A stretch of 64,000 bases of DNA from Nocardioidaceae bacterium (GTDB lineage: Bacteria > Actinomycetota > Actinomycetes > Propionibacteriales > Nocardioidaceae), in the NCBI GenBank assembly GCA_017744365.1, contig JAGIBL010000004.1:186001-250000 (forward strand), written 5' to 3'. Numbering within the stretch: position 1 is the first letter of the stretch; the number at the start of each line of letters is the position of its first letter. Under the pieces are notes generated by a model. It searched no databases and had not been told where the DNA came from. It saw nothing but the letters and a program-made list of their open reading frames with translations. Below are positions 13,710 to 16,953 of this stretch, one piece after another. Both the position numbers and the translations under genes were made by a program.

Positions 13710-14099
13710 TCAGCTCAGCGACGCGATCAAGTCCCGCACCCGCGACCTGATCTCATCCCGGATCGCCCGGACCGCCTCGATGCCCTGGCCGGCCGGGTCG
13801 TCGAGCTTCCAGTCCTCGTAGCGCTTGCCCGGGTAGAACGCGCACGCGTCGCCACAGCCCATCGTGACGACCACGTCGGCCGTCCGGACCGCGGAGTCGG
13901 TGAGCAGCTGGGGCTGCGAGCCGGCGATGTCGATGCCAGTCTCGGCCATCGCGGCGACGGCGACCGGGTTGACCGACGCGGCCGGCTCGGATCCGGCGGA
14001 GAGCACCTGGATCCGGTCGCCGGCCAGGTGCTGGAGGAACCCGGCGGCCATCTGCGAGCGGCCGGCGTTGTGCACGCAGACGAAGAGCACGGAGGTCAT
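13710..14099 (-). CDS. arsC: Arsenate reductase (low-MW phosphatase fold, thioredoxin-type)
   Basis: The protein has 129 residues. The P-loop CVHNAGRS holds Cys8, and a second cysteine pair, Cys82 and Cys86 (GCGDAC), gives the three-cysteine relay of thioredoxin-coupled ArsC. The Asp region DWKLDDP near 96-102 supplies the acid. It reduces arsenate to arsenite. Its ATG overlaps the stop of the upstream aquaporin gene (ATGA), so it is the last gene of the arsR-aqpS-arsC operon. Confidence 0.93.
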   Translation of the reverse strand: MTSVLFVCVHNAGRSQMAAGFLQHLAGDRIQVLSAGSEPAASVNPVAVAAMAETGIDIAGSQPQLLTDSAVRTADVVVTMGCGDACAFYPGKRYEDWKLDDPAGQGIEAVRAIRDEIRSRVRDLIASLS

Positions 14100-14755
14100 G
14101 CGGGTTCTCCTTCGAGGGTGGGGAAGAGCAGCCGGACCAGCACCAGCCCGAGCAGGCCGCCGAGGACCTGCACCAGCACGAACATCGGGACCGACGACGG
14201 CGAGATCCCGGCGAAGGTGTCGGAGAACATCCGGCCGGCCGTGACCGCCGGGTTGGCGAAGCTGGTCGAGGACGTGAACCAGTACGCCGCCGCGATGTAG
14301 CCGCCGACGCCGTACGCGATCGTCTCGGTGCGTCGGGTGCGCAGTCCGCCGAAGACCACCAGCACCAGCCCGAGGGTGGCGACGACCTCGGCCAGCCAGA
14401 GGTGCCCGGCCGAGCGGTCGTGACCCGACCAGCTGACGGCGTCGAGGTCGAACATCAGGTTCGCGACGACGGCGCCGAGGATCGCGCCGGCGACCTGGGC
14501 CAGCGCGAGCAGCGCGGCGGCGGACCAGGAGAGCAGTCCCAGTGCCGCCTCGACCACCGTCACCACCGGGTTGAACGAGGCCGAGACCGGCTGCAGCGTC
14601 AGGATCAGGGCCACCAGCACGGCACCGGTGGCGATGCTGTTCTCCAGCAGCCGCAGTCCCGGGTCCGTCGAGGGCCGCGAGGCGGCGATGCCCGAGCCGA
14701 TCACGGTCGCCACCAGGAACGCGGTCCCGGTCAGCTCGGCGAGAGCGCGCCTCAC
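14096..14755 (-). CDS. aqpS: MIP-family channel (AqpS-type aquaglyceroporin, arsenite exit)
   Basis: The protein has 219 residues from the GTG at 14755, which overlaps the arsR stop (GTGA). It has six hydrophobic segments and the two half-helix motifs of aquaporins: NPV in SASFNPVVTVVEA and NPA in SFANPAVTAGRMFSDTF. In Sinorhizobium an aquaglyceroporin, AqpS, sits between arsR and arsC and releases arsenite downhill. The same order here supports that role. No ArsB or Acr3 pump is present in the operon, so efflux would be passive. The symbol is by analogy. Confidence 0.85.
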   Translation of the reverse strand: MRRALAELTGTAFLVATVIGSGIAASRPSTDPGLRLLENSIATGAVLVALILTLQPVSASFNPVVTVVEAALGLLSWSAAALLALAQVAGAILGAVVANLMFDLDAVSWSGHDRSAGHLWLAEVVATLGLVLVVFGGLRTRRTETIAYGVGGYIAAAYWFTSSTSFANPAVTAGRMFSDTFAGISPSSVPMFVLVQVLGGLLGLVLVRLLFPTLEGEPA

Positions 14756-15105
14756 AGGCCGCCTCCGATGAGCGTCGCCAGGTCGGCCAGCGCGTCGCGC
14801 CGTACGCGGTAGAACACCCAGACGCCGCGCTTGCTGCGGTCCAGCAGGCCCACCTCGTGCAGCACCTTGAGGTGGTGGCTGATCGTCGGCTGGGAGAGGT
14901 CGAAGGCGTCGTTGAGGTCGCAGACGCAGGCCTCGCCGCCCTCGTGCCCCGCCACCAGCGAGAGCAGCCGCAGCCGTACGGGATCGGCGAGTGCCTTGAG
15001 CAGCGGCGCGATCCGGTCGGCGACCTCCTCGGTCAGCGGCGCGGAGACCAGCGGCGAGCAGCAGGCGACGGCCTCGACCGGGGTCAGCGTCAGGGACTTC
15101 GACAT
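14752..15105 (-). CDS. arsR: Arsenic-responsive ArsR repressor
   Basis: The protein has 117 residues. The metal-binding pair CVC (Cys60, Cys62) lies at the start of the DNA-recognition helix (ACVCDLNDAFDLSQPTISHHLKVL) as in classical ArsR, and there is an extra Cys15-Cys16 pair near the N-terminus. Arsenite binding would release the operator. It is first in the arsR-aqpS-arsC operon. A CAATAT hexamer ends 6 nt before the ATG, so the message is probably leaderless, and the hexamer is embedded in the palindrome TCAATATTGA. Confidence 0.93.
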   Translation of the reverse strand: MSKSLTLTPVEAVACCSPLVSAPLTEEVADRIAPLLKALADPVRLRLLSLVAGHEGGEACVCDLNDAFDLSQPTISHHLKVLHEVGLLDRSKRGVWVFYRVRRDALADLATLIGGGL

Positions 15106-15167
15106 GCATCAATATTGACAGACATCGATATCTGCGTCCATCGTGAGACATCGACCGTCATCGATGG
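15106..15167. promoter_or_regulatory. Divergent ars control region with ArsR-type dyads
   Basis: TCAATATTGA at 15109-15118 is a perfect palindrome covering the presumed arsR -10. CATCGA recurs at 15123-15128, 15149-15154 and 15159-15164, and CCATCG (15138-15143) faces CGATGG (15162-15167). The sites lie between arsR (leftward) and the mini-ORF at 15180 (rightward), so one ArsR-bound region could control both directions. The rightward promoter is not clearly visible. Confidence 0.6.
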
Positions 15168-15179
15168 AAGGAGATCGCG

Positions 15180-15203
15180 ATGTGCGACTGTGGCTGCTGC
15201 TGA
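15180..15203 (+). CDS. Seven-residue Cys-rich mini-ORF (MCDCGCC)
   Basis: ATG TGC GAC TGT GGC TGC TGC TGA encodes MCDCGCC, four cysteines in seven residues. A strong Shine-Dalgarno, GGAAGGAG (15166-15173), lies 6 nt upstream, better than at most genes in this window. It faces away from arsR across the shared control region and is followed by a small GC hairpin before glpD. It could be a translated metal-chelating peptide, or a leader peptide whose translation senses Cys-tRNA or thiol stress. No homologue is recognised. The tight ribosome-binding site and extreme composition argue against chance, but expression is unproven. Confidence 0.55.
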   Translation: MCDCGCC

Positions 15204-15222: not shown

Positions 15223-15243
15223 GGGGCCTGCCAGACTGGCCCC
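15223..15243 (+). terminator. Hairpin between the mini-ORF and glpD
   Basis: GGGGCC (15223-15228) pairs with GGCCCC (15238-15243) across a 9-nt loop, ending directly before the glpD ATG. It could terminate or attenuate transcripts from the ars control region. The loop also contains CAGACT, the presumed glpD -10, so the dyad may be partly coincidental. Confidence 0.4.
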
Positions 15244-16953
15244 ATGAGCCTGATCGCCGACCTCGGACCGGACTCACGCGCCACCGCGCTCGCCGCGATG
15301 GCCGGCACGGAGGTCGACGTCCTGGTGGTCGGTGGCGGCGTGGTCGGCGCCGGGGTCGCGCTGGACGCGATCACCCGCGGGCTCTCCACCGCGCTCGTCG
15401 AGCAGCGCGACTACGCCAGCGGCACCTCCAGCCGCAGCAGCAAGCTCGTCCACGGCGGCCTGCGCTACCTGGAGATGTTCGACTTCGGGCTCGTTCGCGA
15501 GGCGCTGCAGGAGCGCGGCCTGCTGCTCACCCGGATCGCGCCGCACCTGGTCCGGCCGGTGCCGTTCCTCTACCCGCTGCACAAGACCTGGGAGCGCCCG
15601 TACGTCGGCGCCGGACTGGCCCTGTACGACGGCATGGCCATGGTGGGCAAGTACGACATGGGCGTGCCCAAGCACAAGCACCTGTTCCGCCGCCAGGTCG
15701 CCCGGATGGCCCCCGACCTGCGCACCGACCACCTCACCGGCGCGATCCGGTACTACGACTGCCAGGTCGACGACGCCCGGCTGGTCATGAACATCGCCCG
15801 CACCGCCGCCGCGTACGGCGCCCACGTCGCCTCGCGGACCAAGGTCACCGGGTTCCTGCGCGAGGGCGAGCGGGTGGTCGGCGCCGCGCTGCGCGATCTC
15901 GAGAACGACGTGGATCTGGAGGTCCGCGCGAAGGTCGTGGTCAACGCGGCCGGTGTCTGGACCGACGAGATCCAGGACCTGGTCGGCGGCCGCGGCGCGC
16001 TGCGCGTCGAGGCCAGCAAGGGCATCCACCTGGTGGTGCCGCGCGACCGGATCCGCAGCGAGGCCGGGTTCATCACCAAGACCGAGAAGTCGGTGCTGTT
16101 CGTGATCCCGTGGGGCCGGCACTGGATCATCGGCACCACCGACACTCCCTGGAACCTGGACCTGGCGCACCCGGCGGCCAGCAAGGCCGACATCGACTAC
16201 GTGCTGGGGCACGTCAACACGCTGCTCAAGGACCCGCTGGACCACGAGGACGTCGAGGGTGTCTACGCCGGGCTGCGGCCGCTGCTGCGCGGCGAGGTCG
16301 AGGCCACCTCCAAGATCAGCCGGGAGCACACCGTGGTCGCGCCGGTCCCGGGCCTGGTGCTGATCGCGGGCGGCAAGCTCACGACGTACCGGGTGATGGC
16401 CAAGGACGCGATCGACGTGGCCGCGCGCTCGCTGGACGGGGGAGTCCGGGAGAGCATCACCGACCGGGTGCCGCTGCTCGGCGCGCACGGCTTCGAGACC
16501 CGGACCAACCAGCGCGCCACCCTCGCCCGGGCGAGCGGCCTGCACATCTCCCGGATCGACCACCTGCTCGGCCGGTACGGCGGCATGGTCGACGAGGTGC
16601 TCGCGCTGCTCACCGAGCGTCCCGAGCTGGCCGAGCCGCTCATTCACGCCGACGACTACCTGGTCGCCGAGGTCGTCTACGCGGCCACTCACGAGGGCGC
16701 CCGGCACCTCGACGACGTGCTCACCCGTCGTACGCGGATCTCCATCGAGACCTTCGACCGCGGCGTCCTGGCCGCCCCGCAGGTGGCCGACCTGATGGCC
16801 GGCGCACTCGGCTGGGACCAGGCCCGCGTCGAGGAGGAGGTGGACCACTACCTGCGCCGGGTCGAGGCCGAGCGCCAGTCCCAGCAGATGCTCACCGACC
16901 AGGAGGCCGACGAGGCGCGGGTGCAGGCGCCCGAGGGGCCCTGGGCGGTGTGA
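15244..16953 (+). CDS. glpD: Aerobic glycerol-3-phosphate dehydrogenase (FAD)
   Basis: The protein has 569 residues. The FAD dinucleotide-binding motif VDVLVVGGGVVGAGVALDA lies near residues 24-42, followed by GTSSRSSKLVHGGLRYLE, the GlpD signature. The C-terminal DAO_C domain (about 400-540) is complete. It oxidises glycerol-3-phosphate to dihydroxyacetone phosphate and feeds electrons to quinone at the membrane. CAGACT ends 6 nt before the ATG with no Shine-Dalgarno, suggesting a leaderless start. No glpK or glpF lies alongside; the neighbouring aquaporin belongs to the ars operon. Confidence 0.95.
   Translation: MSLIADLGPDSRATALAAMAGTEVDVLVVGGGVVGAGVALDAITRGLSTALVEQRDYASGTSSRSSKLVHGGLRYLEMFDFGLVREALQERGLLLTRIAPHLVRPVPFLYPLHKTWERPYVGAGLALYDGMAMVGKYDMGVPKHKHLFRRQVARMAPDLRTDHLTGAIRYYDCQVDDARLVMNIARTAAAYGAHVASRTKVTGFLREGERVVGAALRDLENDVDLEVRAKVVVNAAGVWTDEIQDLVGGRGALRVEASKGIHLVVPRDRIRSEAGFITKTEKSVLFVIPWGRHWIIGTTDTPWNLDLAHPAASKADIDYVLGHVNTLLKDPLDHEDVEGVYAGLRPLLRGEVEATSKISREHTVVAPVPGLVLIAGGKLTTYRVMAKDAIDVAARSLDGGVRESITDRVPLLGAHGFETRTNQRATLARASGLHISRIDHLLGRYGGMVDEVLALLTERPELAEPLIHADDYLVAEVVYAATHEGARHLDDVLTRRTRISIETFDRGVLAAPQVADLMAGALGWDQARVEEEVDHYLRRVEAERQSQQMLTDQEADEARVQAPEGPWAV

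Follow-up and report, generated by a model that had tools for sequence, protein, structure and literature searches.

Bacterial metallothioneins (e.g., MymT) and the phytochelatins of plants and fungi are short, cysteine-dense binders of metals and metalloids. Phytochelatins are not gene-encoded, whereas the actinobacterial ars-locus peptides described here are, and compared with metallothioneins these peptides are shorter and carry CC pairs together with acidic residues. The preliminary description of one of them, the seven-residue MCDCGCC, had stated that no recognised family covers it, and this held for the three longer counterparts searched against Pfam and NCBIfam, which matched 0 families at a maximum E-value of 10 (the length of the 7-mer precludes such a search). 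No report of such cysteine peptides in ars loci appeared in the available excerpts of the literature matches listed.

The arsenic-related enzyme family ArsI/CadI (NCBIfam NF041414, ArsI_CadI_VOC) shares with the mini-ORF encoding MCDCGCC the slot divergent from arsR, a second operator, and a Shine–Dalgarno (SD) sequence, and its tail contains Cys pairs like the GCC end of the peptide, which is a likeness of motif only. ArsI/CadI has a VOC catalytic domain that the mini-ORF, with its seven codons, lacks, and the peptides are free-standing with 7–30 residues. CC pairs near a terminus are also found in ArsR and ArsM-like proteins of the same loci (the N-terminus of the ArsR encoded next to the mini-ORF, which additionally contains CVCDL, and the starts of the ArsM-like proteins of loci L029 and L031, named by eye), but those vicinal cysteines sit in full-length proteins whereas the mini-ORF product would be a free peptide.

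Short actinobacterial ORFs with dense Cys codons have been described in mycobacteria as leaderless polycysteine sORFs with a role as cysteine attenuators (Canestrari et al. 2020, as cited in the excerpt of PMC9094748 consulted). In contrast to these leaderless sORFs, as that excerpt presents them, the mini-ORF is SD-led and located beside ArsR-like operators, and peptides of its kind have no constant downstream gene and no detected attenuator.

The arsR-Divergent Mini-ORF

The features surrounding the mini-ORF are listed in table 1 with their positions in the window, that is, the whole 64-kb stretch of DNA that was analyzed. Direct reading confirmed the sequence, the coordinates, and the cysteine content (four out of seven residues) given in the preliminary description (ATG-TGC-GAC-TGT-GGC-TGC-TGC-TGA), as well as the SD sequence, its spacing, and the orientation divergent from arsR, which starts at 15105 on the other strand. 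The aquaporin-like gene between arsR and arsC is presumably an AqpS-type channel with a putative role in arsenite transport.

Table 1. Features around the cysteine-rich mini-ORF (window positions)
Feature	Position	Strand	Evidence or remark
arsC, low-molecular-weight-phosphatase-type arsenate reductase	13710..14099	-	Pfam LMWPc 8e-23; NCBIfam ars_reduc_gluta 2e-29, under its cut-off
Aquaporin-like channel (MIP), GTG start	14096..14755	-	Pfam MIP 2.1e-16
arsR, ArsR/SmtB-family repressor	14752..15105	-	Pfam HTH_5 7.8e-16; NCBIfam HTH_metalloreg above cut-off
Further ArsR-like site	15096..15114	+	22.2 bits; over arsR start codon
First ArsR-like operator	15112..15131		20.5 bits at 15112-15130 (+); 21.0 bits at 15113-15131 (-)
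TTGACA, -35-like	15115-15120		Overlapped by first operator
Second ArsR-like operator ACATCGACCGTCATCGATG	15148..15166 (also given as 15148-15167)	+	24.9 bits; upstream of SD
Shine–Dalgarno sequence GGAAGGAG	15166..15173	+	6-nt spacer to mini-ORF ATG; direct reading
Cys-rich mini-ORF MCDCGCC, 7 codons plus stop	15180..15203	+	Direct reading
Hairpin	15223-15243		6-pair stem; ends at glpD start codon
glpD, glycerol-3-phosphate dehydrogenase	15244-16953	+	Downstream of mini-ORF; starts 40 nt after it

The mini-ORF is probably a real, ArsR-controlled gene for a Cys-rich microprotein that most likely binds As(III), and it would belong to a scattered set of CC-rich, mostly acidic peptides of 7–30 residues in actinobacterial arsR/aquaporin/arsC loci. 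The features computed for this reading are the position, the SD sequence, the operator-like sites, the recurrence of such genes, and the conservation of cysteines in the compared pairs; from them it is predicted that ArsR represses the gene and that the peptide is translated, binds As(III), and benefits the cell. The 24-mer of the mini-ORF occurs a single time in the 4.76-Mb genome, and a degenerate pattern for MCDCGCC matched 1 out of 24 genomes of the genus, which is the genome of the window itself. Seven codons are too few for a coding statistic on the window copy, and a peptide of this size may be degraded quickly.

Counterparts in Related ars Clusters

A first set consisted of the best 30 loci, including that of the window, from a search for ArsR in 58 genomes. 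An SD-led Cys mini-ORF was present in the same slot in five of these 30 arsR-divergent regions and encodes MCDCGCC (L002, the window), MDTCGCGCCGC (L004), MSENECCDCCGCC (L006), MAENECCDCCGCC (L007), and MDDCCTGTGCC (L008). The added sets comprised the best 80 of 233 named loci and a family set in which 119 out of 341 genomes contained a close ArsR. Overall, 211 loci correspond to 157 distinct divergent regions, of which 90 contain CadI (identified by its start motif), eight a mini-ORF, and 59 neither, where a few of the 59 are CadI genes with an unusual start (L133, L148, L191, and L192) and mini-ORFs inside CadI loci were left out of the count. The additional divergent peptides are MTDLEIACCADAAVAEASTDGCCGGIPCC (Nocardioides phosphati, L033/L112), MTEIEAACCARAGDDSDCCGGVPCC (L150), and MTTTHDDCCDPGCCGGCC (L198). 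Among the named genomes that carry such a gene are N. marmorisolisilvae (L035), Nocardioides sp. Root240 (L041), and N. phosphati (L033); for part of the relatives, the family or genus is assumed from identical loci of named records and from general taxonomy.

The strict scan (SD, ATG or GTG start, ≤30 amino acids, ≥4 Cys, and ≥20% Cys on both strands) was applied to all 157 distinct regions and matched seven, none of them with CadI. An SD-like sequence precedes the counterparts as well, and it is weak in L198, which was therefore missed by the strict scan. Together with the peptides inside ars clusters described below, a total of 15 distinct SD-led peptides were collected (eight divergent from arsR in the family of the window and seven within clusters of Sinomonas/Arthrobacter-type genomes), picked by reading the output of scans whose thresholds varied to some extent. 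They are 7–30 amino acids long with 21–57% Cys each, contain 36% Cys and 25% Asp plus Glu overall with few basic residues, and have CC at the C-terminal end in 14 out of 15 cases. A looser scan also listed chance-looking Cys ORFs; an SD-like match in L205 about 1 kb into the cluster was dropped because it was taken to lie inside a gene, and Cys ORFs without an SD were dropped in L027, L050, L066, L103, L110, L183, and L197.

Between L033 and L150 all six cysteines are kept while the length and the other residues changed, and a single codon within the ORF distinguishes L006 from L007; the conservation of cysteines thus rests on two pairs, of which only L033/L150 is able to show it. The preliminary description had proposed to look for conservation in related arsR regions, and this gave a mixed outcome that does not refute its interpretation: counterparts exist, although the majority of related ars loci contain no such peptide gene (related loci are not independent, and Fisher values on locus counts are optimistic). 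The peptide was present in zero out of seven plasmid and more distant, order-level ars loci. The search was centered on arsR, so that peptides in other settings would be missed.

In Sinomonas and Arthrobacter silvisoli the divergent slot is without a peptide gene, and an SD-led peptide is encoded directly after arsC on the arsR strand (MRTGCCDDGCCDDTECC, MAGGDDDCCCDDSCECC, MTTGCCENGCCDDDQDCC, MRTTGCCDDGCCEETECC, and MDPGCCTDTGCCTDTGCCDDNCCDDGQDCC). In four Sinomonas loci no ars gene was seen within a few hundred bases behind the peptide (unannotated reading), and in L083 the peptide gene is followed by a flavoprotein-like gene in the same orientation. A class-wide search for the motif CC[DE][DE]xCC matched 24 out of 394 genomes at 25 places, one of which is an SD-led Cys-rich ORF of ≤30 amino acids; MSTGCCDDECCEDGQDCC, located directly after the aquaporin gene, was found by this search. 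An ArsR search in the family of the MSTGCCDDECCEDGQDCC genome identified a close ArsR in 24 out of 245 genomes and yielded MDTCCCNNSCQNGCCEDQDCC, located directly after arsR. The 24 loci divide into seven with a peptide, eight with CadI, and nine with neither; matches of the scan in L260 and L261 (ORF inside arsR) and in L256 and L258 (Cys tail of CadI) were dropped. In the nine loci with neither, the stretch behind arsC (in L244, behind the aquaporin gene) contains no peptide.

Within the window, the mini-ORF is the sole match of the strict scan on both strands, and zero out of 416 other 300-nt tiles, each strand counted, match. Second-order Markov simulation produced four matches among 20,000 regions. 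Among the tiles of the relatives' loci outside the divergent region, four out of 3568 match, and all four are the ars-cluster peptides of Sinomonas that opened the second peptide group, so these tiles are not a clean background. An origin of the mini-ORF by chance is unlikely, and a chance ORF was rejected as an explanation on the basis of the recurrence in related ars loci and the background scans. The counterparts in related ars clusters indicate that the mini-ORF probably encodes a minimal arsenic-binding peptide.

ArsR-Like Operators and a Predicted Mode of Action

A matrix for the operator was built from the 60 nt before CadI starts (consensus ACATCGACAATCATCTATG). With this CadI-derived matrix, the ArsR-like sites noted earlier beside the mini-ORF were recovered at three places, and sites >12 bits occur in the window only within or at the edge of the intergenic region between arsR and the mini-ORF; zero out of 2,000 shuffles reached 16 bits. 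The operator count was based on 175 distinct regions in which CadI was identified by tblastn (103 with CadI anywhere in the locus, eight with a divergent peptide, and 64 others, which include loci whose peptide gene is located at another place in the cluster). A second ArsR-like site (≥8 bits) is present in seven out of eight divergent peptide loci, 100 out of 103 CadI loci, and four out of 64 others. The only site of L198 is the first operator because the peptide gene is so close to arsR. The four sites among the others are those of L029 and L031, which precede the ArsM-like genes, that of L024, which resembles a shifted first operator, and that of L210. At a stricter threshold of 21.35 bits, the second site is found in four out of eight divergent peptide regions, 57 out of 64 CadI regions, and zero out of 43 regions with neither. 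The site of L210 scores 19.8 bits, and no CadI, Cys ORF, or other nameable gene is located behind it. A consensus promoter scan of the intergenic region found no full sigma-70-type site, and a promoter role of TTGACA is accordingly putative.

As predicted from this arrangement, As(III) would cause ArsR to leave the operators that surround the divergent promoter, the promoter would fire, and the peptide would be synthesized from its own SD. Its paired cysteine thiols would then bind As(III) as a minimal buffer or carrier, and the peptide would act much like a free-standing version of the Cys–Cys tail of ArsI/CadI in the chromosomal slot of that enzyme. The very small arsenite-binding peptide considered in the preliminary description fits the comparative evidence, given the counterparts, the SD, the ArsR-like operator, and the cysteines kept in the one informative pair; the attenuation leader offered there as the alternative is unsupported.

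If it acts as such a chelator, the window copy would rank among the smallest known resistance genes, and genes this short are usually missed by annotation. If such peptides are made and functional, they would give the arsR/aquaporin/arsC arsenic system an additional layer that binds the metalloid directly, illustrate how little sequence a selected resistance gene may need, and supply short gene-encoded As(III) ligands that could be synthesized and tested right away. Their occurrence in two families and at several positions makes the function directly testable.

Relation to ArsI/CadI

The divergent peptides occupy the slot that usually holds ArsI/CadI. In L003 and L005, which are close to the window on the ars tree, CadI lies between arsR and glpD with a similar SD region ahead of it and ends 62 nt (L003) and 40 nt (L005) before glpD. 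Among 103 CadI tails, a set that includes a few broken or read-through ones (L019, L177, and L193), 91 have CC in the final four residues and 44 end exactly in CC. The mini-ORF can be read as a CadI tail minus the enzyme, in terms of motif likeness, the sequences being too short for homology.

The tree of the ars loci was calculated with FastTree from arsR, aquaporin, and arsC fragments of 126 loci (66 with CadI, 44 with neither, and 16 with a peptide), with identical rows dropped and loci without an aquaporin match dropped unless they carry a peptide. The peptide label requires 10 changes on this tree, at least six of which are forced by well-supported branches, indicating that the peptide gene arose or was lost repeatedly. 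It is tentatively suggested, as a reading with a real chance of being right, that actinobacterial ars loci repeatedly originate or retain free-standing, gene-encoded As(III) chelators of 7–30 residues, similar in function to ribosomally made phytochelatins, and that in the family of the window this would have happened in the CadI slot, probably with the tail kept and the enzyme lost.

The main rival explanation, considered unlikely, is a decaying remnant in which the catalytic domain of ArsI/CadI was deleted and the operator, SD, start codon, and Cys–Cys end were left without a function. Points in its favor are the shared slot, an SD and operator similar to those of CadI, and the CC ends of CadI tails. 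Furthermore, none of 16 genomes with a peptide, including that of the window, had a match to CadI at E ≤ 0.001 (both of two controls, run with the first eight genomes, were positive), but CadI was likewise unmatched in nine out of 12 further genomes (one had a strong match and two had weak ones), so the absence of CadI is not specific to peptide genomes. Mutual exclusion of peptide and CadI was rejected for the same reason. In several lineages, however, the SD-led frame has remained intact with a high content of Cys together with Asp, Glu, and Gly, L033 and L150 share all six cysteines, and the peptides of the Sinomonas/Arthrobacter type are located elsewhere than in the CadI slot. One relative (L177/G280) does contain a fragment of CadI, but this real fragment differs from the peptide genes in that its second operator is gone and its frame encodes no CC peptide. 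A remnant explains the slot but leaves the repeated clean CC frames and the other positions unexplained.

The fragment in L177 (G280:C292) matches CadI residues 57–92 and is divergent from arsR, and the genome contains another CadI copy elsewhere. In the CadI genes of L256 and L258, an ATG or GTG with an SD-like stretch is present at the start of the Cys tail and would give a free tail peptide of 19–20 amino acids, which may be due to chance. A gene for an FAD/NAD(P)-binding oxidoreductase-like protein (named by eye) with the tail VCGGSG...GCCAP is located next to arsR on the opposite strand in L047, L122, L128, and L186, suggesting another ars-linked enzyme with a CC tail.

An improbable alternative to As(III) binding as the role of the peptide is that it binds a thiophilic metal but has a different job, either as a carrier to the aquaporin or in binding Cd, Sb, or Bi. 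CC motifs lack specificity for As(III), and the annotation of the ArsI/CadI family describes a heavy metal resistance metalloenzyme, but 15 out of 15 peptides are located in ars loci, albeit in a search centered on arsR.

Downstream Genes and the Hairpin

The gene following the peptide varies. It is glpD in L002, L004, L006, and L007 at a distance of 34–42 nt, in L008/L041 an AlkB-like gene (named by eye) lies ~190 nt further on, in L198 the peptide stop is one base before the ATG of arsC, and in L033, L112, and L150 an opposing tRNA-Lys gene closely follows the peptide gene. The short distances to glpD and arsC would suit a mini-ORF that is translated and has its value in cis, through ribosome loading or mRNA protection for the next gene. 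This is very improbable, as it would leave unexplained both the Cys content and the loci in which an opposing tRNA closely follows.

The preliminary description had also proposed a leader peptide whose translation depends on charged Cys-tRNA and controls the hairpin in front of glpD. The 6-pair stem exists, but L004, L006, L007, and L005 do not share it, and the strong hairpin in L003 is a different one. Folding of the 131-nt region was no better than that of shuffled sequences (z 0.27; 118 out of 200 shuffles as good), the region contains no terminator-like site and no T-run after the hairpin, and a search of it against Rfam returned no match. An attenuation leader was rejected on the varied downstream context together with these negative results. 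A cysteine-sensing leader for glpD is therefore highly unlikely, despite the nearby glpD start and the polycysteine attenuators of mycobacteria, which according to the excerpt of PMC9094748 are leaderless where the mini-ORF is SD-led; furthermore, glpD is not a cysteine gene.

The stem may be part of the start region of glpD itself. The ATG of glpD has no clear SD, and an AGACT element is located 6 nt upstream (window 15223-15246), so glpD may be leaderless. Elements similar to AGACT precede glpD in some of the relatives.
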